From positions 886,418 to 950,417 of the forward strand of contig NC_014926.1 in NCBI RefSeq assembly GCF_000185805.1: DNA of 64,000 bases, given 5' to 3'. Source of the DNA: Thermovibrio ammonificans HB-1. GTDB lineage: Bacteria; Aquificota; Aquificia; Desulfurobacteriales; Desulfurobacteriaceae. A program made the position numbers and the translations under genes. The notes under the pieces were generated by a model. That model searched no databases. It saw nothing but the letters and a program-made list of their open reading frames with translations, and was not told the origin of the DNA. Positions 1,379-14,679 of the stretch are shown here, piece after piece. Position 1 is the first letter of the stretch. Each line of letters begins with the position of its first letter.

Positions 1379-3046
1379 TTAGACACCCCTTGCAAGTTTT
1401 TCTACTTTTTCAATATCCTGAAGGAGTTCTTGTTTGTATTTGTTTAGCTCCTTTATTGAGTTGAGTTTCTGCTCTTTCAGTTGAAGTAAAATTTCCTTTT
1501 TGATTTCTTCCTTCTCTTGAAGCTCACTGAAGGTATCCTCTAAGATTTTTTCTAATTCTTCCTCAATGCTGTTGCTTATCAGGGAAGAGATTTGAGGAAC
1601 GATTTCATCGTACTTAGAGGCAAGGTATTTTCTGGCTACTGGATTCCCTATGATTTCTACGGGGTTAATACTTTTAATCACTTTGGCCAAAATCTTACCT
1701 GCTTTCTCCAGCCCTACTGCTTTACCTATCTTTCCAAGTTTTGAAATAAATGCACCGGCTATACCTTCGGCTGCGTTTGCTGCTCCCGCTCCGGGGATAA
1801 CTATGGCTGTTAAAACTCCTGTGAGAATTACTTTTATGATTTCAATTTTTTTAAGTTCGCTTGCTATCTGCTCTTTTATGCTATTAACAGCTTCTTTAAT
1901 GGTTATCGATGAGAACTCTTCAGATAGTTTCAGCTTTCTTTCAATGAGCTTGTTTATTCTATCTGTGAATTCTTCTTCAATTTGGGAGAGGATTTGTTTG
2001 AGCTCGTCCTCATCTTCTGCTGAAACTATATTCATTTTGTGAGCTCTTAGAAGTTTTTCTGCTATGTAGAAAACCTGCTCAGCTATTTCTGTAACAGCTT
2101 CTTGAAGTTTTTTCTTTTCTTTTTCTATCTGGTAAAGCTCATTTTCTACGGTATTTATCTCCCTGTCTATTTGGGAGTTATCAAGTTCTGTTTTGCTAAG
2201 CAGGTCTCTAAGGCTCTTAGCAAGTTCGTTGGCAATTTTTGCTGCCTCTTTAAGGCGCCTCTCTTTTTCTAATATCTCTTTTTTCTTAAATACTTCCTCC
2301 TGTAAGCCTTTTAGGAAACTTTCAATTGATGCGCTATCCCCTTCAAAGGCTCTTTTGGCCGAGGTGACAAAGATTTTGTTTTCGACTCTCTCTTGGATTT
2401 GTAATTCTTTAAAGAGAGTTTGGATTACTTTTGTGGCGTGTTTTTTTACCTTTTCTATGTCTTTCTGAGGAATTCTATCGGCTTTTGTGAGCACGAAGAG
2501 CGTTTTACTTAGTAGGGGTTTAACATCGGGTCTTTTAAGAAATTTTAGGACCGATTCCGGGATTGTTCCAAAAGTTATATCTTGGCATACAATGGCAGCA
2601 TCGAGTTCCGGAAGGTAGCCAAAGGTTATTTCTGTGTCGGTCTTCTCGAGTGACGCTATTCCTGGGGTGTCGACCACTTCGATTCCTTCCGGAAGGTGTT
2701 CTAAGGCAGGTATTTTTACTAATGCTTCTCCTTCTTTTCTTCCCAGTGCTATTTCCTGGAATTCCAGAGGTTCTATTTTGATGATTTCTCCGTTTTCTTC
2801 TTTAAAGAACTCCGGAACTTCAACGGATTTGTCCGGAATTAGATGGATTATGTTCTTGGTTGTAGGTTTTTCCATAGTCGGCAGTATTCTTGTTCCGAGA
2901 ATTGCGTTTATTAAGGACGATTTTCCCGAATTGAACTCTCCCAAAAAGCCTATTTTGATTTGTATGGGCGCCTCGAGCTTTTCCAGCTTTTGAAGTATTG
3001 TCTCTAAACCGTATTTTGCGGCTGTTTCCTTCAACTCTTGAATCAT
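1379..3046 (-). CDS. Dynamin-like GTPase with membrane hairpin
   Basis: A 555-residue dynamin-family GTPase. The sequence shows P-loop GEFNSGKSS at residues 36-44, a PTT switch-I near 61, DTPG at 126-129 and TKAD at 187-190. Long Glu/Lys-rich helices follow. A hydrophobic Gly/Ala-rich stretch at about 405-440 resembles the paddle or membrane-insertion hairpin of bacterial dynamin-like proteins, and a final coiled-coil region closes the protein. The ATG at 3046 follows AAGGAGGG. It is the first gene of a two-gene unit with the adjoining dynamin-like gene, whose GTG is one base past this stop. Paired bacterial dynamins often work as heteromers in membrane tethering or repair; that role is inferred here. 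The AT-rich codon use differs from most of the window. Confidence 0.88.
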   Translation of the reverse strand: MIQELKETAAKYGLETILQKLEKLEAPIQIKIGFLGEFNSGKSSLINAILGTRILPTMEKPTTKNIIHLIPDKSVEVPEFFKEENGEIIKIEPLEFQEIALGRKEGEALVKIPALEHLPEGIEVVDTPGIASLEKTDTEITFGYLPELDAAIVCQDITFGTIPESVLKFLKRPDVKPLLSKTLFVLTKADRIPQKDIEKVKKHATKVIQTLFKELQIQERVENKIFVTSAKRAFEGDSASIESFLKGLQEEVFKKKEILEKERRLKEAAKIANELAKSLRDLLSKTELDNSQIDREINTVENELYQIEKEKKKLQEAVTEIAEQVFYIAEKLLRAHKMNIVSAEDEDELKQILSQIEEEFTDRINKLIERKLKLSEEFSSITIKEAVNSIKEQIASELKKIEIIKVILTGVLTAIVIPGAGAANAAEGIAGAFISKLGKIGKAVGLEKAGKILAKVIKSINPVEIIGNPVARKYLASKYDEIVPQISSLISNSIEEELEKILEDTFSELQEKEEIKKEILLQLKEQKLNSIKELNKYKQELLQDIEKVEKLARGV

Positions 3047-3080
3047 TTTTCCCTCCTTGTTTGGAAAAAACTTTAAGTTT

Positions 3081-3107
3081 CTTATGACCCAAATTTTGGG
3101 TTATAAG
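3081..3107. promoter_or_regulatory. 27-bp near-perfect palindrome between divergent genes
   Basis: The arms CTTATGACCCAAA and TTTGGGTTATAAG flank a single central T and match at 12 of 13 positions. The site lies between the divergent dynamin-like gene (start 3046) and the response-regulator gene (start 3168), where it cannot serve as an end-of-gene terminator for either. An operator for a dimeric regulator is the simplest reading. The regulator is unknown. Confidence 0.45.
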
Positions 3108-3167
3108 CCGGGGTTTCGGAGCACGTGGTGTTTGAGGTAATATTCCTTTAGTTTCCGGAGGGTTGCC

Positions 3168-4487
3168 TTGCAGGAGTGCAGAGTTCTTGTGGTTGAAGAC
3201 GACCCGACTCAGAGGGAGCTTCTTGTAGAGCTCCTTCGTGAGGAGGGTTTTAACGTTTCTTCCGCTCCGAGTGCCGAGAGGGCCTTAAGGCTTTTTCAGA
3301 AGGAGCGTTTTGACGTTGTTGTTACAGACGTTCGCCTTGAGGGTATGAGCGGGCTGGAGCTTTTAGAGCGTTTGAAGGAGCTTGACTCCGCGGTAGAGGT
3401 GATAGTTATAACGGCCTTTAGCAGCGTGGAAGATGCTATTAAGGCTATTAAGGCGGGAGCTTTCCACTACGTTACCAAGCCTTTTGAGCCGGAAGTCCTT
3501 TTAAATCTTGTGGCTAAGGCGTGTCAGCTCGCTTCTCTTCGGAGGCCCTCTAAGGAGTGTTGCGGTATCGTTTACGCCTCTAAGCAGATGGAGGAGGTTG
3601 TCCGTCAGGCTTCTCTCTTTGCAAAGAGTGATGCCCCGGTTTTGATTACAGGGGAGAGCGGAACAGGCAAGGAGCTTCTGGCCCGTTTCATCCACAAGGA
3701 AAGCGGCCGCAAGGGCCCCTTTATAGCCGTTAACTGTGCGGCAATTCCCAAAGACCTCTTTGAAGCAGAGCTTTTCGGCTACGAGAGGGGAGCTTTTACC
3801 GGCGCAACTTCCTCTAAGGCCGGCCTTGTGGAGGAGGCCGAAGGGGGAACTCTCTTCTTAGACGAAGTGGGTGAGCTTCCCCTTGAACTCCAGCCGAAGC
3901 TCCTCCGTTTCCTTCAGGAGGGGGAGTTCCGTCGCGTTGGCGATACCAAGCTGCGCCGCTCCAACGTTAGGATAGTTGCCGCAACAAACAGAGACCTTGA
4001 AGGGCTTGTTTCCGAAGGCCTTTTCAGGGAAGATCTCTTTTACAGGCTCAGCGTGTTGAACCTTCGGGTTCCGCCCCTGCGGGAAAGGCCGGAAGATGTT
4101 CCGGTTCTCATAGGCCATTTCCTCGAGAAATACTCGGATAAATACAAAAAGGAGGTGAAGCTCTCTCCGGAAGCTTTAAGCCTTTTGCTCTCCTATCCCT
4201 ATCCCGGCAACGTCAGGGAGCTTGAGAATTTAATCCACAGGATAGTTGTCCTCTCCCAAGGGGAGGTAACTCCTCAACTCGTAGAGGCCCTTTTGGGCTC
4301 AAAGAGCAGCCACTCCTCTTTTGAAGTTGACTTCTCCCGTCCCCTTCCGGAGCAGGTGGCACAGTTTGAGAAAAGAATGATTGAAGAGGCCCTGAAAAGG
4401 ACCAATTACGTCCAGACCAAAGCTGCTAAACTTCTCGGTATAGATGAAAAGTCCTTAAGATATAAGAGGAAAAAGTACGGAATATGA
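3168..4487 (+). CDS. NtrC-family sigma-54-dependent response regulator
   Basis: A 439-residue activator with three domains. The receiver has an acidic pocket at D11-D12, the phospho-acceptor D54 in VVTDV and K104. The AAA+ domain has Walker A GESGTGKE at 162-169, the sigma-54 contact loop GAFTGA at 208-213 and Walker B LFLDE near 229-233. A Fis-type helix-turn-helix lies at about 395-439. The start is a TTG six bases after CCGGAGGG; I see no better start. The gene overlaps the histidine kinase gene by four bases (ATGA), so the two form a two-component pair. The sigma-54 promoter and paired palindromes immediately after the kinase gene (5618-5720) are the likely target. The inducing signal is not evident. 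Confidence 0.95.
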   Translation: MQECRVLVVEDDPTQRELLVELLREEGFNVSSAPSAERALRLFQKERFDVVVTDVRLEGMSGLELLERLKELDSAVEVIVITAFSSVEDAIKAIKAGAFHYVTKPFEPEVLLNLVAKACQLASLRRPSKECCGIVYASKQMEEVVRQASLFAKSDAPVLITGESGTGKELLARFIHKESGRKGPFIAVNCAAIPKDLFEAELFGYERGAFTGATSSKAGLVEEAEGGTLFLDEVGELPLELQPKLLRFLQEGEFRRVGDTKLRRSNVRIVAATNRDLEGLVSEGLFREDLFYRLSVLNLRVPPLRERPEDVPVLIGHFLEKYSDKYKKEVKLSPEALSLLLSYPYPGNVRELENLIHRIVVLSQGEVTPQLVEALLGSKSSHSSFEVDFSRPLPEQVAQFEKRMIEEALKRTNYVQTKAAKLLGIDEKSLRYKRKKYGI

Positions 4488-5605
4488 GGAAGGAACGTTT
4501 TGTAGTTCCCGTTGTAGCCCTTTTTCTGCTTCTCGGGGCGGCCCTTGCCAACCTCTACTACCTCCACAGCGAGCTGGGGAAGTTCTACCGCCTTGTCATA
4601 GATGAGGAGGTTGCGCGGATTCGCTCCGTTGTGGAGGGGACGATAGCCGCAGGCGGAGACCCGGTTGAAGCCTTAAGCGTTTACCTTGAGAAATCTAAGC
4701 TCTTAAAGGGGGTTACATTCTCTTTGGAGGGTAGGGAAGTTATAGTCCCCGGTTCTCAAATCTCGAAGGACTACTACAAAGTGACCCTTTCGGTGAAACC
4801 TTTTACCTTTAACCTCTACATAGATGCCTCTTACCTTAAGGAGCTCAACAAACACATACTTCTGGCCTCTCTTTTCCTCATCTTCTTCTCTCTGCTGTCG
4901 GTCTCCCTGTTGCTCTGGTATATGCGGGAGTTCTACAAGGAGAAAATCGCCCTCGAGCTTGAGAAGAAGGAAAAGGAGCGCCTCTCCACTATTAACCTTG
5001 TGATTCACTCACTACTTCACGAGGTAAAGAACAGGCTCAACGCTTTCAGGCTCTTGCTGTACCGTTTGGAGAAAACGGGCGATGCCTCCTACATTGAAAA
5101 GCTCAAAGGCGAAGTTGCCCTTCTCTCCCGTTACATAGAGGAGACGGCCGACCTCCGAAGGCCTTTAAAGTTGAACCGGGCCCCCGTTAGAATAGACTCA
5201 CTCCTTCGGGAAGTTGCAGAGAAGTTTAAGGACCTTGCCGAGGCCAACGGCGTTAAGATAGAGATTTCTGTTGAGCCTGCCGAGCTTCTCGCAGACAGAG
5301 ACAGGCTCTACTCCCTCTTCTCCGACCTTTTAAAGAACGCCATAGAGGCTCTCTCTTCCTACCGGGGCGAGCGCATCGTGAAAATAACCGGTAGGAGCTT
5401 CCGAGATGTGTATAGGGTTGAAGTTGCCGACAGCGCCGGTTCACTCCCTAAAGACGCCTTTAAACTCTTCTCCTCCTCTAAAAAGGGAGGATTCGGCCTC
5501 GGGCTCTTTAACGCCCGCCGAATAGCCCTTGCCCACAACGGAAGCCTTTCTGCCAGGGTAGAGAAGGGCTGGACGGTTTTCCGGGTGGAGCTCCCCCTCA
5601 GGTAG
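4484..5605 (+). CDS. Membrane sensor histidine kinase
   Basis: A 373-residue kinase, cognate partner of the overlapping response regulator. Membrane segments lie at about 7-25 and 123-146. They bracket a periplasmic sensor region of roughly 95 residues with no Cys and no domain that I recognise. A charged linker leads to the dimerisation helix with H179 in the HEVKN motif. The ATPase domain has an N box (LLKNAIEAL, about 281-289) and a glycine-rich lid (GGFGLGLF, near 331). The arrangement is typical of kinases that pair with NtrC-type regulators. Its position directly before the sigma-54 promoter suggests that it senses an envelope signal and controls the next operon. The ligand cannot be inferred. 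Confidence 0.93.
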   Translation: MRKERFVVPVVALFLLLGAALANLYYLHSELGKFYRLVIDEEVARIRSVVEGTIAAGGDPVEALSVYLEKSKLLKGVTFSLEGREVIVPGSQISKDYYKVTLSVKPFTFNLYIDASYLKELNKHILLASLFLIFFSLLSVSLLLWYMREFYKEKIALELEKKEKERLSTINLVIHSLLHEVKNRLNAFRLLLYRLEKTGDASYIEKLKGEVALLSRYIEETADLRRPLKLNRAPVRIDSLLREVAEKFKDLAEANGVKIEISVEPAELLADRDRLYSLFSDLLKNAIEALSSYRGERIVKITGRSFRDVYRVEVADSAGSLPKDAFKLFSSSKKGGFGLGLFNARRIALAHNGSLSARVEKGWTVFRVELPLR

Positions 5606-5617
5606 CTTCCGCCTGCT

Positions 5618-5664
5618 TCGGAAAATTTTCCGACCCACTCCCGCCGATTCGGAAATTTTTCCGA
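5618..5664 (+). promoter_or_regulatory. Paired enhancer-type palindromes (candidate UAS)
   Basis: Two 16-bp sites are seen. TCGGAAAATTTTCCGA at 5618-5633 is a perfect palindrome. TCGGAAATTTTTCCGA at 5649-5664 is the same site with one central change. Both are followed by CCC. Their centres are 31 bp apart, about three helical turns, as expected for cooperative binding of an NtrC-type activator. They lie about 75 and 106 bases upstream of the predicted transcription start of the adjoining sigma-54 promoter. Binding by the response regulator at 3168 is inferred. Confidence 0.8.
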
Positions 5665-5704: not shown

Positions 5705-5720
5705 TTGGCACGGATGTTGC
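5705..5720 (+). promoter_or_regulatory. Sigma-54 (-24/-12) promoter
   Basis: The sequence TTGGCACGGATGTTGC matches the RpoN consensus TGGCAC-N5-TTGC exactly, with GG at 5707-5708 and GC at 5719-5720. A start of transcription near 5732 is expected. This excludes a GTG at 5733 as the start of the next gene and supports the ATG at 5757. Confidence 0.9.
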
Positions 5721-5756
5721 TTATTAAAACCGGTGAACTGCTTAAGAGGTAGAGAC

Positions 5757-6710
5757 ATGAGAAAGCTTCTAAATCTGACGTTAGCCGCTTTAGCGGCCTT
5801 AACCGTTCCGGCGTTTGCCGCCCCTTACGGAGGATGCCCCGTTTTTAACCAGGGGGCTCAGTATTACCGTTCTGCCCTTTCACCTCAAGAGGTTAAAGAC
5901 CTCCTCCACATGAGGGAGGAGGAAAAGCTCGCCCGTGACGTTTACCTTACCCTCTCTTCCGTATACCCCATTCCCGTTTTCAGGAACATCGCCCGTGCGG
6001 AGCAGCGCCATATGGACGCCGTTGGAACGCTTTTGAAACGCTACGGCATTAAAGACCCTGTTGCCGAAACCGGAGACCGGGTGGGCGTTTTTAAAGACCT
6101 AGAGCTTCAGAAGCTCTACACCGAGCTTGTTAACCGCGGGAAGCGCTCTCTTATAGACGCCCTTAAGGTGGGAGCAACCGTAGAAGACCTGGACATAAAA
6201 GACCTTGAAGAGGCCCTCTCCAGGACGAACCGCCCCGACATAAAGTTTGTCTACTCCAACCTTATGAAGGGCTCGAGAAACCATATGAGGGCCTTTGTGA
6301 GAACTCTCCGTCGTTTCGGTTCGGACTACTCCCCCCACTATATATCAAGAGCGGAGTTCAACCGGATACTCTCTACTCCCCACGAAGTAGGCCCTGCGAG
6401 AACGGGGCTCAGGAGGGTTGAACTCCGTGGCGAGGTCCTGGCAGTCTACAAGCGTTCCGGACTGGGCAGGACCTCTGTAAAGTGGTGGGTGGTGGAGCTT
6501 CAAACCCCCCAAGGAAGGTTTTCTGTATTCGTCTCCCCCTCTTGGCTCCACCCCCGCCTCTCCCTTTCTCCCGGAGATACCGTAGAGCTTGAAGCCTTTT
6601 CTCCTCCCTATTTTGGAAGCTCCCGGTTTGTCGCCTGTAAACTTAAAAACCTGACAAGCGGAGCTGTTTACGACTTCTCTTCCTGGAGGAAGGTCTGCGG
6701 GAGGCTGTAA
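5757..6710 (+). CDS. Exported DUF2202 (ferritin-like) protein with C-terminal extension
   Basis: A protein of 317 residues. It starts with a signal peptide (MRKLLNLTLAALAALTVPAFA, cut predicted near residue 21). A helical DUF2202-type domain follows, with the characteristic MREEEKLARDVY and AEQRHMDAV motifs, whose Glu/His pattern recalls ferritin-like metal sites. The last 90 or so residues are beta-rich and resemble an OB fold; they share a VEGVV/LRGEV-type start with the next protein. DUF2202 has no settled function. I chose the ATG at 5757, after AAGAGGT, because the predicted transcription start excludes the upstream GTG. It is the first gene of the sigma-54 operon and its stop overlaps the next start (TAATG). 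Confidence 0.85.
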   Translation: MRKLLNLTLAALAALTVPAFAAPYGGCPVFNQGAQYYRSALSPQEVKDLLHMREEEKLARDVYLTLSSVYPIPVFRNIARAEQRHMDAVGTLLKRYGIKDPVAETGDRVGVFKDLELQKLYTELVNRGKRSLIDALKVGATVEDLDIKDLEEALSRTNRPDIKFVYSNLMKGSRNHMRAFVRTLRRFGSDYSPHYISRAEFNRILSTPHEVGPARTGLRRVELRGEVLAVYKRSGLGRTSVKWWVVELQTPQGRFSVFVSPSWLHPRLSLSPGDTVELEAFSPPYFGSSRFVACKLKNLTSGAVYDFSSWRKVCGRL

Positions 6711-7081
6711 TGTTTAGGCTTTTACCGATAATATCTGCTGTGGCCCTCTTTGCCGGAGCTCAAGGAGCAACCCCGACTGCCGAGAGCCTTGCCCTGGGCT
6801 ACCAGGTGGAAGGTGTTGTCGAGAAGGTAGCGGCCTCTGAGCTTTTGCTCTCCACCGATTACGGGCCGGTGGTTTTAGACCTTAAAAAAGTAGCCCTTAG
6901 GCCGAAGAAGGGGGAGAGGGTTTCCGTTTACGGCTACCACCCGGCCGGTAAACCCTTGAACTACCTGGTTCCCTGCCGGCTCTCTGTAGGCGGCAAAACG
7001 GTAACCGCGGCATGGCCCCGTTGCCTGCTCCTTGAAGAGTTTCACAAACACGAAGGGGCCGCAGGCGAGAAAACCCAATAG
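6710..7081 (+). CDS. Small exported protein, OB-fold-like
   Basis: A 123-residue protein with an N-terminal signal peptide (hydrophobic to about residue 19, cut after GAQGA). A single beta-rich domain follows, with two Cys (CRLS near 89 and WPRC near 104) that could form a disulfide. The sequence YQVEGVVEKV-x-ASELLLS resembles the start of the C-terminal extension of the preceding DUF2202 protein, so the two may have related folds. The ATG overlaps the preceding stop by one base, so translation is coupled. No function can be assigned. Confidence 0.75.
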   Translation: MFRLLPIISAVALFAGAQGATPTAESLALGYQVEGVVEKVAASELLLSTDYGPVVLDLKKVALRPKKGERVSVYGYHPAGKPLNYLVPCRLSVGGKTVTAAWPRCLLLEEFHKHEGAAGEKTQ

Positions 7082-7086
7082 AGGAG

Positions 7087-7416
7087 GTGGCTATAGCTAC
7101 CGTTACAGGAGTTACATCAACAGACTACGCCCTTCAAGCCATGCAGCAGCACCGCTACCGCAGGGGTGGAGGCGGCAACGGCTTGGGGCAACTTATGAGG
7201 CAGCTCTCTCAGGACCAAAGGCAGCAGGTTGCCCAGCTTCTGCAGTCTTTGCCTCAGGACCTCAGACCGGTTGCAAAGCAGCAGATTCTTCAGATTGACT
7301 ACGCTTCGCTCTCTGCCGACCAGCTCTACCAGCAGATGGTTTCGGTTATCAACGCCGTAGCCTCTCAGGTTACCGGAAGCTCTCAGGAGGGAAGCTCTAT
7401 CAGCGTTTACGCTTAA
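7087..7416 (+). CDS. Small Gln-rich helical protein, start uncertain
   Basis: A 109-codon frame rich in Gln and Ser, with a Gly-rich patch (RRGGGGNG) near residue 25 and amphipathic helices such as QLLQSLPQDLRPVAKQQI. There is no signal peptide. The start is unclear. The GTG at 7087 overlaps its own GAGGAGG site, which is too close for normal initiation. An ATA at 7093 has correct spacing but is a rare start. The ATG at 7141 has no nearby ribosome-binding site. It sits between exported proteins and the DUF4405 gene in the sigma-54 operon. I do not recognise a family. Confidence 0.6.
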   Translation: MAIATVTGVTSTDYALQAMQQHRYRRGGGGNGLGQLMRQLSQDQRQQVAQLLQSLPQDLRPVAKQQILQIDYASLSADQLYQQMVSVINAVASQVTGSSQEGSSISVYA

Positions 7417-7466
7417 CCTCTTGCCTGCGGTCCCCTTTTAAGAACATCTGACTAAAAGGAGGTGAG

Positions 7467-8279
7467 ATGCTCAGGAAGTTTGTAAGCTCTGTACTCTTCT
7501 TCTCCCTTATTGCGATGCTCATTACCGGAACGGTGCTCTTCATAATGCCCCACGGCAGGGTTGCCTACTGGACGGGCTGGCACTTCTTGGGACTCGATAA
7601 AGACCAGTGGGATAACCTCCACATAATCTTCGGCTTCATCATGGTTTTCTTCGGTATCTGGCACGCAGCCCTTAACTGGCGCAGCCTCGTTAACTACTTT
7701 AAGGAGAAAGACTTTCTCTTTGCAGGCTTTTTCTCCCTTGTGGTTGCCGTGGGTGCCGTTTTAAACGTTCCCCCCTTTAAGAACTTCATAGAGTTTGGGG
7801 AGTCTATAAAGCAGAGCTGGCCCAAGCCGAAAACGATGCCTCCGGCCCCCCACGCAGAGCTCTTTCCCCTGACGAAAATCGCAAAGATGGTTGGCTTAAC
7901 GCCTCAGGAGGCGCTTTCGATTCTTAAGCAGAGCGGTCTGAAGGTCTCCTCACCCAATCTGACCTTGAAGGAGATTGCCCGCCTCAATAACACCACCCCT
8001 GCCCACGTTTACGAGCTTCTGTTAAAGCACGGCAAGAAGACCCCTTCTCCTGCGGCAGCCGGAGGTTTCGGTATGGGGCGCATGACCTTGAAGAAGGTCT
8101 GCTCCGAGCTGGGCATTCCCGTTAGCTCCTGCATCGAGCGGCTGAAAAAGGCCGGTATAGAGGCCTCTCCTGAGCAGAGGCTCAGGGATATAGCTTTTAA
8201 ACACGGGTACTATCCGTACCAGATTCTTCAGATTCTTAAAGGAGGTAGCAATGGGCAAGTTAAACAGGCTGGCCATTAA
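7467..8279 (+). CDS. DUF4405 membrane protein with two helical C-terminal repeats
   Basis: A protein of 270 residues. The first 100 residues hold three membrane helices (about 7-27, 50-71, 83-101) with conserved His at 29, 39, 52 and 66 in the pattern seen in DUF4405/cytochrome-b-like haem proteins. The soluble C-terminal part carries two similar blocks of about 50 residues (roughly 133-190 and 205-262). Each begins with L/M-T-x-x-K and contains helix-turn-helix-like segments such as IAKMVGLTPQEALSIL. The ATG follows AAGGAGGTGAG. A role in transmembrane electron transfer for the operon is inferred. The gene overlaps the PqqD-like gene by 29 bases. Confidence 0.82.
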   Translation: MLRKFVSSVLFFSLIAMLITGTVLFIMPHGRVAYWTGWHFLGLDKDQWDNLHIIFGFIMVFFGIWHAALNWRSLVNYFKEKDFLFAGFFSLVVAVGAVLNVPPFKNFIEFGESIKQSWPKPKTMPPAPHAELFPLTKIAKMVGLTPQEALSILKQSGLKVSSPNLTLKEIARLNNTTPAHVYELLLKHGKKTPSPAAAGGFGMGRMTLKKVCSELGIPVSSCIERLKKAGIEASPEQRLRDIAFKHGYYPYQILQILKGGSNGQVKQAGH

Positions 8280-8502
8280 CGATGAAGGCTTCATTTTCGA
8301 CCCCGAAACGGGAAACAGCTTTACTGTGAACCAAACGGGTCTCTTTATCATCAAGCTCCTGAAAGAGGGCAAGAGCGAGGAGGAGATAGTGCAGGCCCTT
8401 ACCGAGGAGTTTGACGTTTCCCCCGAGGAGGCCCGCAGAGACCTTGTGGACTTTATAGAGCAGCTCAGGCTCAACGGCCTTCTGGAGGTGAAGAATGTAT
8501 AG
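8251..8502 (+). CDS. PqqD-like peptide-binding protein (RRE type)
   Basis: An 83-residue protein matching the PqqD pattern. It has an N-terminal beta strand pair (the L-x-x-x-N-x-T-G-x-x-I motif, here FTVNQTGLFIIKLL), then a three-helix winged-helix core with EEIVQALTEEFDVSPEEARRD and FIEQLRLNGLLE. PqqD-type domains bind leader peptides and deliver them to modifying enzymes. The start is an ATG after AAAGGAGGT, inside the end of the DUF4405 gene. The ATP-grasp gene starts inside its last codons. Its presence next to an ATP-grasp enzyme and tiny or leader-bearing proteins suggests ribosomal-peptide modification; the substrate is unproven. Confidence 0.85.
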   Translation: MGKLNRLAINDEGFIFDPETGNSFTVNQTGLFIIKLLKEGKSEEEIVQALTEEFDVSPEEARRDLVDFIEQLRLNGLLEVKNV

Positions 8503-9523
8503 AGTTGCGGTTTCCGGCATCAACGCCGTTGATAACCCGGGGCCGGGAGTCGGCATAGCCAAGAGCTTGAAGCAGAGTGACCTTGAGGTTACCGTTTACG
8601 GCCTTGCCTACGACGCTATGGAGCCCGGCATCTATATGGACTGGCTCATAGATAAGAGCTTCATAATGCCCTACCCTTCCGAGGGGGAAGAGCTCTTCCT
8701 CCAGCGGCTCTTCTACATAAAGGAGCGCTACGGGCTCGACGCCGTTATTCCTGCCCTCGATGCCGAGCTTCCCCTCTTCATTAAGGGTGCCCAGTTCCTT
8801 GCCTCTTCCGGGATTAAGACCTTCCTTCCCACCGAGGAGCAGTTCAAGCTCCGGGGCAAGGATAAGCTCCCCATGGTTGCCGACCGCATAGGGGTTAAGG
8901 TTCCCAGAACCGTAACCGTAACCTCTTACGAAGACCTGGTAAAGGCCGTTGAGGAGATTGGCTTTCCGGTAATGATTAAGGGAATCTTCTACAAGGCCTA
9001 CAAGGCCTACAACGTATCCCAGGCTACCGGCTACTTTAACTCCATAGTTTCCGAGTGGGGTTACCCGGTAATCGTTCAGGAGGTTGTCTCCGGCGAAGAG
9101 ATGAACGTTGTGGGGTTGGGAGACGGCGAAGGCGGCCACTTCGGCCTTGTGGGGATAAAGAAGCTCTGGATAACGAGCTTAGGCAAGATTTGGACCGGCG
9201 TTACGGTTCGCAACGAGGCCCTGCTTGAGGCGGCCGCCAACTTCGTCTCTTCCTTTAAGTGGCGTGGGGCTTTTGAGTTTGAGTGTATAGTGAACGGCTC
9301 CACCATCTACCTGATAGAGGTGAACCCCCGCTTCCCGGCTTGGGTTTACTTTGCAACGGGGGTAGGTGTGAACCTTCCGGCAAGGCTCCTTAAGGCGGCT
9401 CTCGGCCTTGAGCCGGAGTGCTCCTGGGATTACGAGGCCGGGAAGCTCTACGTTCGCTACACCGACGATTTGGTCACCGATATGTCCCGGTTCCAGAAAG
9501 TTGTGACTTCGGGAGAGACTTAA
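8495..9523 (+). CDS. ATP-grasp carboxylate-amine ligase-like enzyme
   Basis: A 342-residue ATP-grasp protein of the carbamoyl-phosphate-synthase-like type. It has an N-terminal Rossmann-like domain (1-115), a central ATP-grasp fold with the lysine motif GFPVMIKG near 160-167 and the metal-binding motif LIEVNPRFP near 272-280. ATP-grasp enzymes activate a carboxylate as acyl phosphate and join it to an amine or thiol. It overlaps the PqqD-like gene by eight bases, strongly implying joint function. The substrate is unknown. A peptide carboxylate or side chain presented by PqqD, coupled to an amine from the downstream decarboxylase, is one hypothesis. Confidence 0.88.
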   Translation: MYRVAVSGINAVDNPGPGVGIAKSLKQSDLEVTVYGLAYDAMEPGIYMDWLIDKSFIMPYPSEGEELFLQRLFYIKERYGLDAVIPALDAELPLFIKGAQFLASSGIKTFLPTEEQFKLRGKDKLPMVADRIGVKVPRTVTVTSYEDLVKAVEEIGFPVMIKGIFYKAYKAYNVSQATGYFNSIVSEWGYPVIVQEVVSGEEMNVVGLGDGEGGHFGLVGIKKLWITSLGKIWTGVTVRNEALLEAAANFVSSFKWRGAFEFECIVNGSTIYLIEVNPRFPAWVYFATGVGVNLPARLLKAALGLEPECSWDYEAGKLYVRYTDDLVTDMSRFQKVVTSGET

Positions 9524-9536
9524 CGGGGAGGCAGAG

Positions 9537-9671
9537 ATGGCTATTAAAAGGCTTCTCTCTCTTTTGCTTCTCGTTTCTACGGCGGCCTTCCTCGGAAGCT
9601 GCTGCCCGTGCACCAAGAGGTGCTTTAACCCGTGTAAACCGTGCAAACCGTGTAAGTGCTTAAGGAGGTAA
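9537..9671 (+). CDS. 44-residue Cys-rich lipoprotein
   Basis: I read this small gene directly: ATG at 9537 after GGGGAGGCAG, stop TAA at 9669-9671. An N-terminal Lys/Arg and hydrophobic stretch ends in the lipobox LGSC, with Cys22 as the lipidated residue. The mature part is only 23 residues and contains eight Cys (22, 23, 25, 29, 33, 36, 39, 41) in CPC, NPCKPC and KPCKC spacings, plus several Lys and Pro. It lies between the ATP-grasp and decarboxylase genes, and the latter's ribosome-binding site is its last codons. It may be a metal-binding lipopeptide, or the substrate of the PqqD/ATP-grasp pair. No family was recognised. Confidence 0.8.
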   Translation: MAIKRLLSLLLLVSTAAFLGSCCPCTKRCFNPCKPCKPCKCLRR

Positions 9672-9676
9672 CAACC

Positions 9677-11029
9677 ATGAAGAAACCTTACGAGAAACCG
9701 GTTATCTTCAAACTCAAAACCGGTTTCATGAACAAGTTCGGCGGAGGCTCTTACTTCCTGAAAAAGGTCAGAACGAAGATAGACGGCGTTCCCGTAGATG
9801 AGCTGGTTGAGCGGTTCGGTTCTCCCCTGTTCGTCTTCTCTGAAAAGAGGCTTCGCAACAAGTTCAGGGAGCTTAAAAACGCCTTTACCCTCCGCTACCC
9901 TAACGTTGAGTTCAGCTGGTCTTACAAGACCAACTACCTCGACGCTATCTGTGCAATTCTCCACTCTGAAGGGGAAACTGCCGAAGTCGTTTCGGAGTTT
10001 GAGTACGAGAAGGCCCGCCGCCTGGGCGTTCCGGGCAACCAGATAATCTACAACGGCCCCTACAAGCCCTTAGACTCCTTGAGGAGGGCCGCTCGGGAGG
10101 GAGCCAGGATAAACATCGACCACTTTGAGGAGATTGCCGACCTTGAGCAGGTGGCCGACGAGCTGGGAACCAAGATAAAGGTGGGTATAAGGCTCAACAT
10201 GGATACCGGTATAAAGCCCCAGTGGAGCCGCTTCGGCTTCAACCTTGAGAACGGCCAGGCCCTTGATGCCGTTAAGAGGATTGCCGCCGGCGGCAAGCTC
10301 GAGCTTGTGGGCCTTCACTGCCACATAGGGACCTTTATCCTTGAGCCCCGTGCCTACGAAAACGAAGTGAGGAAGATGGTTCAGTTTGCCTACCAGGTTG
10401 AGGAGCAGTTCGGCTTTAAGATTGAGTACTTGGATATCGGAGGCGGTTTCCCCTCTAAAAACAGGCTTAAGGGGGTTTACCTTCCCCCAGACGTTGCCGT
10501 TCCTTCGATAGACGAGTTTGCCGAGAGGGTGTGCAACGCCCTCCTCGAGAGCTTGAAGCCCGGAGACTACCCCAAGCTCATCCTTGAGAGCGGAAGGGCG
10601 ATAGTTGACGAGGCGGGCTTCCTCATAACAACCGTTCACGCCTCTAAGAGGATGCCCGACGGCCGCCGTGCCTACGTTCTTGATGCAGGGGTGAACATTC
10701 TGTTTACCGCCTTTTGGTACCACTTCAACGTGGAGCTCGATAGGGAGGTTCAGGGGCCTTCCGAGCCGTGTATCCTTTACGGCCCCTTGTGTATGAACAT
10801 AGACGTTGTAGACGACGCTGTTCAGCTTCCGCCCCTACCCCGGGGAACGAGGCTCATACTCTCCCCTGTGGGGGCTTACAACGTGACCCAGTGGATGCAG
10901 TTTATCCGCTACAGGCCGGCGGTTGTTCTCATCGGCGAGAACGGGGAGGTTGACCTTATCCGCGAGGCCGAGGACCTTTCCGATATTGTTCGTCGCGAGA
11001 AGCTCCCGGAGAGGTTGAAGCTGCAATGA
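9677..11029 (+). CDS. LysA-like PLP-dependent decarboxylase with leader-like N-terminus
   Basis: A 450-residue fold-type III PLP enzyme of the diaminopimelate/ornithine decarboxylase family. The PLP lysine is K84 in SWSYKTNY, with HCHIGT at 214-219, the phosphate loop DIGGGFP at 253-259 and the second-subunit cysteine C372 in GPLCMNID. The first 25 or so residues are extra compared with usual LysA proteins: MKKPYEKPVI, then a Lys/Phe segment and MNKFGGG. The YxxP-hydrophobic pattern recalls leader peptides bound by PqqD-like domains. The ATG at 9677 follows AGGAGGTAAC. The likely product is an amine from Lys, diaminopimelate or a similar substrate. Whether it acts on a free amino acid or a peptide is unknown. 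Confidence 0.85.
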   Translation: MKKPYEKPVIFKLKTGFMNKFGGGSYFLKKVRTKIDGVPVDELVERFGSPLFVFSEKRLRNKFRELKNAFTLRYPNVEFSWSYKTNYLDAICAILHSEGETAEVVSEFEYEKARRLGVPGNQIIYNGPYKPLDSLRRAAREGARINIDHFEEIADLEQVADELGTKIKVGIRLNMDTGIKPQWSRFGFNLENGQALDAVKRIAAGGKLELVGLHCHIGTFILEPRAYENEVRKMVQFAYQVEEQFGFKIEYLDIGGGFPSKNRLKGVYLPPDVAVPSIDEFAERVCNALLESLKPGDYPKLILESGRAIVDEAGFLITTVHASKRMPDGRRAYVLDAGVNILFTAFWYHFNVELDREVQGPSEPCILYGPLCMNIDVVDDAVQLPPLPRGTRLILSPVGAYNVTQWMQFIRYRPAVVLIGENGEVDLIREAEDLSDIVRREKLPERLKLQ

Positions 11030-13095
11030 GCTTCTTAACCCGCTACGCCGTTTCCATACTGAAGAGCTACTCGGCGGTTCTCTTTAACTCCAGCGTTTGG
11101 GGAGGAGCTGCTCTCCTCCTCCTCACCTTCCTGAACCCGAACGTAGGGTTCGGCGGCTTTGTCTCTTTGATTTCCGCCTACCTGTTTGCACGGCTTGTGG
11201 GCTTTAAGGAGGAGTTCCTCAGGCTCGACTACTACGTTTACAACCCGCTCCTTGTGGGGCTTTCGCTGGGCTACCTTTTTAAGCTGAACTTCTTGAGCTT
11301 ACTCTTCTTTACAATTGCCGGGATTCTGTCGTTCCTGCTCACCTACTTTATCTCATCGTTCCTCTACTACTACCTGAAACTGCCGGTTCTCAGCGTGCCC
11401 TTTGTGGTGGGAAGCTCCCTCCTCTACCTTGCAAGCTCCAAGTTCTCTAACCTTTTTGTCGGGAGCCTCTACCCCCAGTTCCACTTCTTTGTAAAGCCCC
11501 TCCCTCTCCCACTGCCGGTTGAAGGTTACCTGAAGTCGCTGGGGGCCGTTTTCTTTACCCCCACTGTTTTAGGCGGTGCTGTAATATTCGCGGTTCTACT
11601 TGCCGTCTCGCGGATACTGGTTCTCCTCTCTTTAATCGGCTACTTCTCCGGAACCCTCTTCCAGGCACTACTGACCGGCTCTGCCTACCACGCCTTTACA
11701 GACACGGCCGCCTTTAACTACATTCTGGCCTCTATGGCGGTTGGAGGCGTTTTTCTCGTTCCCTCCCTCAGAAGCTACAAGTTTGCCCTGCTGGCCTCTC
11801 TGCTTGCCGTTCCCTTCAACGCTGGTGCCAAGGTGTTCTGGGAGAGTTACGGCCTTCCGGTTTTCGCCCTTCCCTTTAACGTTACCACCCACCTGCTCCT
11901 TTACGTTCTTATGTCGGTTAACTACTGGGCGGTTGTGAAGCTCTACAAGGGAACCCCCGAGAGGACCTTGGACTACTACCTGACTTTTGTAAAGCGTTTC
12001 CCCTCTACCGATAGGGAGGTGAGCCTGCCCTTTTCCGGCAGGTGGACCGTTTGGCAGTCGTTCAACGGCGAGTGGACCCACAAGGGCCCCTGGCGTTATG
12101 CCGTTGACTTTGTCATAACCGACCAGGAGGGGAATACTTACTCGGGGGACGGCTACTACCTTACCGACTACTACGCCTTCGGTAAGCCCGTTCTCTCGCC
12201 GGCCGAAGGTCAGGTGGTTTCGGTAGTTTCTACCCTACCGGATAACCCTCCGGGCAAGGCCGACAGGGAGAACAACTGGGGTAACTACGTGTTAATTAGG
12301 GACAAGCGGGGTTTTTACGTTCTTGTCGCCCACTTTAAGCAAAACAGCATCAGGGTGAAGCCCGGCGACTACGTTGTTCGGGGCACTCTTTTGGGCCAGT
12401 GCGGCAACTCCGGCTACTCCCCTCAGCCCCATATCCACATCCACGTTCAGCTCCTTCCCGAGCTGGGAGCTCCTACTGTTCCCTTTGTTTTCTCTTCCTA
12501 CCTTGTTGGCAACCTCTTTAAGGATGCCGGCGTTCCTTCTGTCGGTGAGGTGGTTGAGCCGGTTTACCCCGATAAGTCTCTGTTATCGCGGCTCAACTTG
12601 TTAATAGACCAGGAGCTCTCCTACTCGGTTTTCGAGGGTGAAAAGGAGGTTTCAGAGCTTCACCTCAAGGTTAAAATGGCCCCGGACTCCACCTTCTACC
12701 TGACAGACGGCAGGGCGAAGCTCTACTTCGGAATCAGGAACTCCACCTTCTACTTCTACCACTTTGAGGGGGATACTTCTTCTCCCCTTAAATACCTCTT
12801 CTTCTCGGCCCCGAAGATTCCTCTCTTTGAAAAACAGGGAGTTTACTGGCGCGACTACCTTCCCCTTATAGCCGTTACTTCACGACTGAAGAGGGAGCTC
12901 TACCTGCTCCTCTCCTCGTTTAAAGAGAACCTGTTTCAGGTTTCGGTTAAAAGCTCTTGGAAAGGAAGGGATTCCTTGCACTCTGATATACTTTTACCCT
13001 CCGGTAAAAGGGTTGAAGCTTTTACACTTTTATCCCCGGACTACGGCTTCGAGGAGATTCGTTACGGCTCTATAACTTTAAAGAGAAGGAGGTAA
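11026..13095 (+). CDS. Urea-transporter-like / M23 peptidase fusion protein
   Basis: A 689-residue protein. Residues 1 to about 310 hold many membrane helices of the urea-transporter (UT) type. The segment from about 350 to 490 is a LytM/M23 zinc peptidase domain, with the metal-ligand region YAVDF near 357, the AHFKQNS element and the closing motif PHIHIHVQ near 466-473. A beta-rich tail of about 200 residues follows. M23 domains cleave peptidoglycan cross-links or Gly-rich peptides on the outer side of the membrane. A channel fused to such a domain suggests export or capture of a small amine or amide together with wall or peptide processing. The gene overlaps the decarboxylase gene by ATGA and so belongs to the same system. 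Confidence 0.85.
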   Translation: MSFLTRYAVSILKSYSAVLFNSSVWGGAALLLLTFLNPNVGFGGFVSLISAYLFARLVGFKEEFLRLDYYVYNPLLVGLSLGYLFKLNFLSLLFFTIAGILSFLLTYFISSFLYYYLKLPVLSVPFVVGSSLLYLASSKFSNLFVGSLYPQFHFFVKPLPLPLPVEGYLKSLGAVFFTPTVLGGAVIFAVLLAVSRILVLLSLIGYFSGTLFQALLTGSAYHAFTDTAAFNYILASMAVGGVFLVPSLRSYKFALLASLLAVPFNAGAKVFWESYGLPVFALPFNVTTHLLLYVLMSVNYWAVVKLYKGTPERTLDYYLTFVKRFPSTDREVSLPFSGRWTVWQSFNGEWTHKGPWRYAVDFVITDQEGNTYSGDGYYLTDYYAFGKPVLSPAEGQVVSVVSTLPDNPPGKADRENNWGNYVLIRDKRGFYVLVAHFKQNSIRVKPGDYVVRGTLLGQCGNSGYSPQPHIHIHVQLLPELGAPTVPFVFSSYLVGNLFKDAGVPSVGEVVEPVYPDKSLLSRLNLLIDQELSYSVFEGEKEVSELHLKVKMAPDSTFYLTDGRAKLYFGIRNSTFYFYHFEGDTSSPLKYLFFSAPKIPLFEKQGVYWRDYLPLIAVTSRLKRELYLLLSSFKENLFQVSVKSSWKGRDSLHSDILLPSGKRVEAFTLLSPDYGFEEIRYGSITLKRRR

Positions 13096-13097
13096 GG

Positions 13098-13994
13098 ATG
13101 AGGAAGCTCTTGGCTGTGGCAACTCTGTGTTCTGCCATATGGGTTTCTGCTGCATCTGCGGCTGAGCTCGATGCTCCCGTTCACGGCTACGAGGCGCTCT
13201 ACGGCACCTACATCAACTACAGCGGCTCCGGCCTTAAAGATTACGGTTACGTGGGAACCGGTTACCTCTCCTTCGGAGAGAAAGGCAACGCCGTTCAGCT
13301 GGGCTACAGCTATACCTACATCAACTACAAAACCGGCAGCAACCTCACGCAACACGACTTTACCGCCGCCTACTCAAACACCAACGGCATACTGAGAAAC
13401 CATACTTTTACCCTTGGCGGTCACTACATCAGCAGCGACGACGACCTTACAGACGGCGGTTACACCCTATTCTTCGACGGAACTTACAACAGCTACCAGA
13501 AGCGTTACCCTTACGCCTTCCAGTGGAACGGGGGGCTCGGCTTTTACTACACCCGTTACCCCAACACTGTAGATTTCTACGTTTTCCAGTTTACCCCCCA
13601 TACTACGGTGAAGCTCTTCTCTAACTACCGTCAGGGAGCCCTCTACCTCGACTTTACCGGTTACGCAATTCACGTAAATAAGGCCTCTCAGGTCGGTCTG
13701 GATAAATCCAACTACTACTCTGCCGAGGCGGCCCTCCGCTACTACTACGGCAGTTACGACGTTAAGGTGGGTGGCTGGCTCGGTAAACAGGTTTTCGCCG
13801 TTAAGAACATGGGATTCGTTGTTTACAACCTGTCGGAGAAGTACAAAGGCGGTGCCGAACTGGAGCTTGGCTATACCTTCAGAAACGGTTTAAGGCTCTC
13901 TTTAAACTACACTTACAACCGTTACAAGGAGCTTGAGACCGACGACTCTGTTAACCAGTCGGTTGTAACGGTTTCTCTCGGCTACCGATTCTAA
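13098..13994 (+). CDS. Outer-membrane beta-barrel protein
   Basis: A 298-residue protein with a clear signal peptide (cut after SAASAA, near residue 22). The rest is almost entirely alternating aromatic and polar beta strands rich in Tyr, Gly, Asn and Thr, ending in YRF, the aromatic C-terminal signature of Bam-assembled barrels. I count about 14 candidate strands, but the number is approximate. The ATG follows GAAGGAGGTAAG, three bases past the transporter/peptidase stop. It is probably an outer-membrane channel for the operon's product or substrate. No specific family was recognised. Confidence 0.8.
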   Translation: MRKLLAVATLCSAIWVSAASAAELDAPVHGYEALYGTYINYSGSGLKDYGYVGTGYLSFGEKGNAVQLGYSYTYINYKTGSNLTQHDFTAAYSNTNGILRNHTFTLGGHYISSDDDLTDGGYTLFFDGTYNSYQKRYPYAFQWNGGLGFYYTRYPNTVDFYVFQFTPHTTVKLFSNYRQGALYLDFTGYAIHVNKASQVGLDKSNYYSAEAALRYYYGSYDVKVGGWLGKQVFAVKNMGFVVYNLSEKYKGGAELELGYTFRNGLRLSLNYTYNRYKELETDDSVNQSVVTVSLGYRF

Positions 13995-14007
13995 GACGGA
14001 GGGTAAA

Positions 14008-14679
14008 TTGAGGAAAATCGCCTCTTTGATTCTTGCCTTTCTGTGGGCCGTTTCGGCCCACGCAACTTCCCTCTCTTACCAGGAGATTAAACAGGCCTAC
14101 TACCGCTCTTACCTTTACGAAAAGAGCGGAGATTACAAAGACGCGATAAACGCCCTGATGCCGGTTTATCAGGCCTATCCCAACGGTTACACGGTTAACC
14201 TGAGGTTGGGGTGGCTCTACTACCTGTGGAAGAAGTACTCAAACTCCGAATACCACTACGGTAAGGCTTTAAAGGCTATACCCTCTTCCGTTGAAGCTAT
14301 GCTCGGCCTGACCCTTCCCTACATGGCCCAGGGCCGCTGGACAGACGTAGAGTCTATCTGCTACCGTATACTCAAAATAGACTACTACAACTACTACGGG
14401 AACCTGCGCCTCTCTGCTGCTTACAGAAACCAGGGGAAATTCAAGTACGCCGAAGCCGTAGACCGTAAGATGCTCGCAATCTACCCTACAGACGGCCAGT
14501 TCCTCCTTGAGCTTGCACGCTCCCTCTACGGGGAGGGAAAGCTCGCCTACGCCGAATCTATACTGAAAGACCTTTTAATACTCGAACCGGAAAACTACAA
14601 GGCCAAAGAGCTTCTCTCCCGAATAGAATCGGAGCTGAAGACCAAAAAGAGCACCTCCAATTCAACTTCCCGAAACTGA
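14008..14679 (+). CDS. Exported TPR-repeat protein
   Basis: A 223-residue protein starting at TTG 14008, six bases after GGAGGG. A signal peptide (MRKIASLILAFLWAVSAHA) is followed by about four to five tetratricopeptide repeats with typical A/G-x-x-Y patterns (GDYKDAINALMPVYQAYP, WTDVESICYRILKIDYYN, FKYAEAVDRKMLAIYP, LAYAESILKDLLILEP). TPR proteins scaffold complexes. As the last gene of the sigma-54 operon, it probably organises the periplasmic or outer-membrane parts, including the preceding barrel. Confidence 0.82.
   Translation: MRKIASLILAFLWAVSAHATSLSYQEIKQAYYRSYLYEKSGDYKDAINALMPVYQAYPNGYTVNLRLGWLYYLWKKYSNSEYHYGKALKAIPSSVEAMLGLTLPYMAQGRWTDVESICYRILKIDYYNYYGNLRLSAAYRNQGKFKYAEAVDRKMLAIYPTDGQFLLELARSLYGEGKLAYAESILKDLLILEPENYKAKELLSRIESELKTKKSTSNSTSRN

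Follow-up and report, generated by a model that had tools for sequence, protein, structure and literature searches.

PqqD-type recognition elements are generally taken to signal the presence of ribosomal peptide natural products. Elements of the TbiB1, TfuB1 and PbaB1 type bind leaders with the motif [Y/W]xxPx[L/V/I/F/A] (PMC13381572; PMC6784204). In LppB, residue D70 holds the leader tyrosine and N33 the proline bend, while F74 lines both pockets; when LppA is bound to LppB, the part of its leader that follows YxxP does not touch the recognition element, and it may engage the modifying enzyme. In the decarboxylase FigC, Met355 replaces an acidic residue whose role is to bind the free amine of the side chain. 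FigC is grouped with SbnH, AcsE, BtrK and MccE, apart from the polyamine enzymes, and the substrates of this group are citryl-amino acids, carrier-bound glutamate and a peptide-nucleotide (PMC7857480). Here, we analysed a 64,000-nucleotide stretch (the window) of the Thermovibrio ammonificans HB-1 genome (1.76 Mb, two contigs), in which a run of genes at 5757-14679 contains a PqqD protein, an ATP-grasp ligase and a LysA-like decarboxylase together with envelope proteins. A PqqD-type leader motif is located on the LysA-like decarboxylase itself. We propose with moderate confidence that PqqD tethers this leader-tagged enzyme to the ATP-grasp ligase and that the two together supply the envelope module with a decarboxylated amino-acid conjugate.

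The LysA-like protein begins with MKKPYEKPVIFKLKTGFMNKFG. Its N-terminal leader peptide, MKKPYEKPVIFKLKTGFMNKFGG, contains the motif residues Tyr5, Pro8 and Ile10 and a conserved Lys20 in MNKFG, so that the leader pattern reads [YW]xxPx[ILMF]...NKFG. Among 64 LysA-like homologues of less than 85% identity, [YW]xxPx[ILMF] was present in every sequence (60 with Y, 4 with W, proline in all 64). A lysine was found 14-17 residues past the leader Tyr/Trp in 63 of the 64, the exception being L081 (MNPLG), though its surroundings vary (NKFG, SKAG, SKYG, REKK). The catalytic domain starts about 28 residues past the leader Tyr/Trp. The mean frequency of the commonest residue was 0.64 in the leader, 0.28 in the following linker and 0.70 in the domain. 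In the AlphaFold2 model, residues 10-27 have a pLDDT below 50, the tail being as good as unstructured.

A leader profile was run through 67 cassette genomes, with E-values up to 5 retained. It matched 66 of them, and all matches with E <0.001 opened a LysA-like frame. In the remaining genome (G645), a W-type leader, WEAPRITPMEFHQLNKFG, was missed by the profile and read directly on the LysA-like protein. No second leader site with a significant score was detected in the 66 genomes with a match, the weaker matches (E about 0.009 to 4), present in many of the genomes, being mostly unread. A further YEKPxI site was absent from the T. ammonificans genome, no small open reading frame (ORF) upstream of PqqD was conserved across phyla, and the small ORFs of the T. 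ammonificans operon are lineage-specific and contain no leader motif. A separate leader-bearing precursor peptide was rejected, as motif, genome, profile and upstream-ORF searches gave no significant site outside the LysA-like ORF. An earlier interpretation of this DNA, made from its letters without database searches (the sequence-only reading), had assumed such a peptide with PqqD acting on its leader; the role of PqqD gains support, with the N-terminus of the LysA-like protein as the predicted leader, while the free peptide gives way to a fusion. In 136 Aquificota genomes, the leader occurred in 43, the ATP-grasp gene in 43 and both in 42. In one of the two discordant genomes the ATP-grasp match breaks off at residue 227; in the other, the contig begins about 50 bases from the leader. 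In some Aquificota (L052, L055 and L058 versus L026-L033), the LysA-like gene lies away from the PqqD-ATP-grasp pair and the leader is still present. The leader profile also matched weakly (E about 0.09, positions 2-12) at L141 (G000:C2:969603-969635), in a conserved frame of approx. 390-540 amino acids, and this match recurs in about 10 Desulfurobacteriaceae genomes.

Profile comparison of PqqD with solved structures placed it nearest to the lasso recognition elements TbiB1 (3.5e-10), TfuB1 (5e-10) and PbaB1 (1e-4), with a weaker match to LppB. Asp64, Asn27 and Phe68 occupy the positions of D70, N33 and F74 in LppB, and Asn and Phe were each found in 85 of 88 sequences. The Asp64 column ranked first for association with the Y/W residue of the leader: Asp was present in 82 of 83 cases with Y and in one of four with W (Fisher p 1.5e-4). 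Both elements of guided modification, a putative recognition element of the PqqD type and a leader motif matching it, are thus indicated by sequence and association.

The catalytic domain of the LysA-like protein keeps the pyridoxal phosphate lysine, the His pair and the catalytic Cys. The residue following this Cys is Met in 88 of 88 sequences (CMNID or CMAID). The closest solved relative is the N-citrylornithine decarboxylase FigC (sequence 1e-58, fold 5e-37), and BtrK is also among the fold and sequence matches. Since the invariant Met is shared with FigC, the comparison argues for a side-chain-conjugated amino acid as the putative substrate. The protein reached 235 bits against TIGR01048, below the equivalog cut-off of 297.9. 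A separate true LysA is encoded elsewhere in the T. ammonificans genome (526 bits) and has no leader tail; the LysA-like protein was accordingly rejected as the diaminopimelate decarboxylase of the cell. The sequence-only reading had seen a simple amine-making decarboxylase, a view that gains no support given the true LysA and the invariant Met. Members of the siderophore-synthetase family were not found among the cassette proteins scanned.

The model of the ATP-grasp protein (pLDDT 92) is nearest in sequence and fold to 2pn1 and the biotin carboxylase/GAR synthetase group, and not to graspetide ligases. Fifty columns were invariant across 22 aligned sequences. RimK, the macrocyclase type of graspetide clusters, appeared in Pfam at only 0.012, and neither the asparagine-synthetase-like cyclase nor the B2 leader peptidase of lasso clusters was present among the Pfam/NCBIfam matches of the operon or the conserved neighbour families. 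A short precursor gene with leader and core, as in ribosomally synthesized and post-translationally modified peptide (RiPP) clusters, was likewise not found, the leader profile marking the LysA-like ORF only. Judged from sequence, the cassette is neither a lasso nor a graspetide cluster, its decarboxylase is FigC-like, and it is predicted to work like a recognition-element-guided pathway, yet the precursor peptide that defines a RiPP was not found. Two variants of the gene set were observed in other genomes. At L143 (G812:C301), positions 1759-3920 contain two tandem, about equally diverged ATP-grasp genes between PqqD and the LysA-like gene. At L041 (1-3500) and G116:C65, a duplicated PqqD and a truncated second ATP-grasp copy are located directly upstream of the cassette.

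Searching with the LysA-like protein returned 283 relatives, from which the best 80 loci were kept and supplemented with 20 loci from other genomes. Homology scans of these loci delimited a core unit consisting of PqqD, ATP-grasp, LysA-like, urea transporter (UT)/M23, barrel and TPR genes. Among the 61 loci with enough flank, PqqD, ATP-grasp and UT/M23 were found beside the LysA-like gene in 59, the TPR gene in 56 and the barrel gene in 43. The six genes mostly keep their order, and in some Myxococcota loci barrel and TPRs reside in one fused protein. The loci bear labels of 17 phyla, several of them from uncultured bins; isolates with the cassette include Thermodesulfobacterium hydrogeniphilum, Thermodesulfatator autotrophicus and Thermosulfurimonas dismutans. 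Apart from the core, all-against-all clustering of neighbouring ORFs yielded DUF2202 (8 of the first 80 loci), regulator/kinase genes (22) and overlapping or antisense frames, and nothing else. The Cys-rich ORF has a weak homologue in one other locus only (L019). Genes flanking the cassette in several phyla (FBPase, ABC transporter, methylase, transposase, cytochrome c, two-component pairs) display no shared theme. The ATP-grasp gene was detected with high score in 43 of 136 Aquificota genomes, and in 16 of 249 Campylobacterota, 13 of 195 Myxococcota, 14 of 297 genomes from the phylum of L065 and 3 of 200 Gemmatimonadota. This patchy occurrence within phyla, combined with 60-70% identity between phyla, suggests that the cassette spread horizontally. 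A search of 72,556 plasmids gave no cassette match. The cassette was also considered as a defence system, a candidate that was dropped because PADLOC returned nothing for the core proteins and only a marginal mad1 match to DUF4405. No RNA element in the operon reached the gathering score. At L136 (10553-13434, G405), frame changes interrupt both the LysA-like ORF and the UT/M23 ORF while their neighbours are intact, pointing to assembly error or decay. In cassettes of Ignavibacteria (L066 8279-8620, L068, L079), a conserved ORF of 114 amino acids without a Pfam family is located just upstream of PqqD.

In T. ammonificans, all eleven ORFs of the run are present with overlaps or gaps of 50 bases or less between neighbours, and the gene downstream lies on the opposite strand (Table 1). 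ORFs and Pfam matches thereby confirm the eleven packed genes that the sequence-only reading had described. As a system, the run is two things joined: the six-gene core, and lineage extras comprising DUF2202, DUF4405, small proteins and sigma-54 control. The proposed eleven-gene system therefore stands as a conserved unit of six, with DUF2202, DUF4405, the two small proteins and the Cys-rich lipoprotein outside it. Likewise, the expected recurrence of the gene neighbourhood in other phyla holds for the core in loci of 17 phyla. That the system is undescribed is supported within the literature searched, where no paper describing the six-gene set and no matching characterised pathway were found; the proposed envelope parts (UT/M23, barrel and TPR) all belong to the conserved core.

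Table 1. Features of the T. ammonificans cassette and its control region, with positions in the window.
Feature	Position	Strand	Evidence
NtrC-type sigma-54-dependent response regulator; regulatory, lineage-specific	3168..4487	+	Sigma54_activat 7.0e-71 (G000:C2:889987); same pair at L038, L040, L042, L043, L080
Sensor histidine kinase, partner of the NtrC-type regulator	4484..5605	+	Homologues beside the cassette in L038, L040, L042, L043, L080
Palindromic activator site CGGAAAATTTTCCG	5619..5632		Kept in relatives
Second palindromic activator site CGGAAATTTTTCCG	5650..5663		Kept in relatives
Sigma-54 promoter TGGCACGGATGTTGCT	5706..5721	+	Sole exact match in window; recurs in relatives
DUF2202 secreted protein, accessory	5757..6710	+	Pfam DUF2202 3.5e-57
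Small secreted protein, accessory	6710..7081	+	No Pfam family
Small protein, accessory	7087..7416	+	Weak Metal_resist similarity, below cut-off (2.5e-4, 21.7 bits vs 29.2)
DUF4405 membrane protein with C-terminal helical repeats, accessory	7467..8279	+	Pfam DUF4405 3e-17
PqqD, discrete peptide-recognition element, core	8251..8502	+	Pfam PqqD 1.5e-20; closest solved structures TbiB1, TfuB1, PbaB1; in 59/61 testable loci
ATP-grasp ligase, CPSase-like, core	8495..9523	+	Pfam CPSase_L_D2 2e-7, ATPgrasp_Ter 4.5e-8
Cys-rich lipoprotein-like ORF, 44 amino acids, lineage-specific, not core	9537..9671	+	Lipobox-like LGSC (by eye)
Leader-like N-terminal tail of the LysA-like protein, MKKPYEKPVIFKLKTGFMNKFG	9677..9742	+	Motif and profile
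LysA-like pyridoxal phosphate decarboxylase carrying the leader, core	9677..11029	+	Orn_DAP_Arg_deC N and C domains 1e-36, 7e-12
UT-fold membrane domain fused to M23 peptidase and C-terminal region, core	11026..13095	+	UT 1.4e-58, M23 9e-13, single ORF
Predicted outer-membrane barrel, core, divergent	13098..13994	+	Pfam sub-threshold only
Secreted TPR protein, core	14008..14679	+	Pfam TPRs

Expression of the T. ammonificans operon is predicted to depend on sigma-54, as had been claimed before. An exact -24/-12 element, TGGCACGGATGTTGCT, is located 36 bases upstream of the first start codon, and its single occurrence in the 64 kb compares with 0.03 expected. Two CGGAAANTTTTCCG palindromes, the putative activator dyads, lie 43-87 bases upstream of the promoter, and the genes of the AAA+ NtrC-type regulator and its kinase are found just upstream of these sites. 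Promoter, palindromes and a kinase/regulator pair recur in the Desulfurobacteriaceae relatives L038, L040 and L043, as well as outside the phylum in Thermosulfurimonas (L080). A sigma-54 promoter within one mismatch was absent from 78 of the 86 cassette loci scanned, and sigma-54 control is thus a trait of this lineage group and not of the system. In Campylobacterota, a sensor kinase gene is positioned directly upstream of PqqD, at L135 (10857-12571) together with an OmpR-type regulator and at L089 upstream of 8738. This arrangement suggests that signal regulation of the cassette relies on a different pair from one lineage to the next. The start of the small ORF at 7087 may differ from that given in Table 1, because its GTG overlaps the ribosome-binding site GAGGAGG.

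The UT domain of the envelope half keeps its fold and both LPxxxxPF motifs. Compared with the urea-transporter signature, LPxxTxPF, the threonine is Ser in one UT repeat and Ala in the other. The ORF scored below the cut-off of TIGR03441. The M23 domain conserves the zinc ligands H352, D361, H436, H469 and H471 expected of this family, with the first His further upstream of the Asp than in the classical HxxxD. Barrel and TPR proteins carry likely signal sequences, as judged by eye.

In the mechanism that we favour, PqqD would bind the [YW]xxPx[ILMF]...NKFG leader on the disordered N-terminus of the LysA-like protein and thereby hold the decarboxylase against the ATP-grasp ligase encoded alongside. 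The ligase would join an amino acid via its side-chain end to a partner, which may be a small carboxylate or amine, or else the tail's own conserved lysine. The LysA-like enzyme would then take the alpha-carboxylate off this conjugate, a reaction that FigC/FslC, MccE and BtrK carry out on their respective substrates, and the product might be passed to, or act together with, the UT-channel/M23 protein, the barrel and the TPR protein in the envelope. In the T. ammonificans lineage, the NtrC-type pair would switch on expression at the sigma-54 promoter.

Several observations weigh against this mechanism. The binding of PqqD to the built-in leader is a deduction from sequence and the complex a proposal. 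The Y/W association draws on four W sequences, all from Myxococcota, and because these leaders come from few related lineages, the Asp64 association is supporting, not decisive. In some Aquificota, PqqD and ATP-grasp genes are separated from the LysA-like gene, so gene neighbourhood does not compel the tether. Among the sub-threshold profile matches there may be a second leader that is weak and diverged. The putative conjugated substrate is deduced from one residue position and overall similarity, and a decarboxylase tree with three distant outgroups did not settle the placement of the LysA-like protein in the FigC/SbnH/AcsE/MccE/BtrK group. To our knowledge, 2pn1 as the nearest solved structure of the ATP-grasp protein is uncharacterised. 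Finally, it is only by co-conservation that the cytoplasmic half is tied to the envelope half.

The conserved lysine opens a different, possible but rather doubtful view, in which the leader is itself the substrate: PqqD would present the tail, the ATP-grasp protein would load an amino acid onto Lys20, and the catalytic domain would decarboxylate it on this arm, as BtrK does on loaded BtrI. Such a role fits the near-constant position of the lysine despite its changing neighbours, the freedom of the LppA leader beyond YxxP in the complex with LppB, and the clade that FigC shares with BtrK and MccE, both acting on conjugated substrates, BtrK being among the matches of the LysA-like protein as well. 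L081 lacks the lysine, however; the role of Lys20 may be no more than binding to the ligase or to PqqD, and the release of a loaded product is left unexplained. A self-contained swinging arm of this kind, charged at the tail lysine and decarboxylated by the same enzyme, requiring no precursor and coupled to an envelope conduit, is an idea that we hold only tentatively and regard as unlikely.

We consider it improbable that PqqD binds a separate small leader peptide, which the ATP-grasp protein would modify using an amine from the decarboxylase and which would then be exported or end up in the envelope. PqqD and a ligase are a common combination for modified peptides and the operon does contain small secreted ORFs, but these have no motif, and the searches described above revealed neither a significant second leader site nor a conserved small ORF upstream. 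There is also little to recommend an ordinary diaminopimelate, lysine or ornithine decarboxylase whose tail is unrelated to PqqD. Its fold and catalytic residues are clearly of the diaminopimelate decarboxylase type, whereas the TIGR01048 score, the separate LysA and the Met in place of an acidic residue all speak against it, and the tail fits the motif of the closest structural relatives of PqqD and co-occurs with the cassette. Half of the core consists of envelope proteins and RREs (RiPP recognition elements) resemble helix-turn-helix domains (PMC7470986), which would suit an envelope-maintenance operon with PqqD merely regulating or chaperoning the decarboxylase and no ligase step. The catalytic residues of the ATP-grasp protein are invariant, though, its gene is as conserved as the rest, and it pairs with PqqD even where the LysA-like gene lies elsewhere; we regard this explanation as very improbable.

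If the proposed tethering of decarboxylase and ligase is correct, a PqqD-type element would serve a widely shared, peptide-free pathway by way of a leader tag on an enzyme. PqqD/RRE genes without a precursor would then need re-reading, and leader fusion would be a natural way of assembling enzyme complexes. Moreover, a metabolite or protein modification spanning deep-sea vent Aquificota to Myxococcota would become testable with two or three purified proteins.

Among known systems, the lasso and Lpp-type recognition elements (TfuB1/FusB1, TbiB1, PbaB1 and LppB) resemble the cassette in that they include the closest structures to PqqD and share the leader motif, the pocket residues N33/D70/F74 and the Y/W link to the D70 column. 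In contrast to these systems, the cassette carries its leader on an enzyme of 450 amino acids and has no free precursor, no lasso cyclase gene and no identified leader peptidase. Graspetides and other ATP-grasp-modified peptides also place an ATP-grasp ligase beside a recognition component, whereas the ligase of the cassette is CPSase/2pn1-like, not RimK-like, and a precursor peptide is missing. The UT protein shares with the bacterial urea channels (dvUT, UT-A/UT-B) the UT fold (Pfam 1.4e-58) and the repeated LPxx(S/A)xPF, and differs from them in carrying an M23 peptidase and a further C-terminal region in the same chain. FigC/FslC, SbnH and AcsE, which act on side-chain-conjugated amino acids, are closest to the LysA-like protein in sequence and fold and likewise have Met for the acidic residue. 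The identity with FigC is about 30%, FigC functions in citrate siderophore synthesis, and its aligned part starts after the tail. Butirosin biosynthesis by BtrI/BtrJ/BtrK and microcin C maturation by MccE are comparable in that an amino-acid unit is decarboxylated on a carrier (BtrK on BtrI) or on a peptide-nucleotide (MccE). In the butirosin pathway a ligase loads the carrier, and BtrJ is an ATP-grasp enzyme. The core of the cassette, in contrast, contains no carrier protein, and a possible carrier is the tail of the decarboxylase itself.

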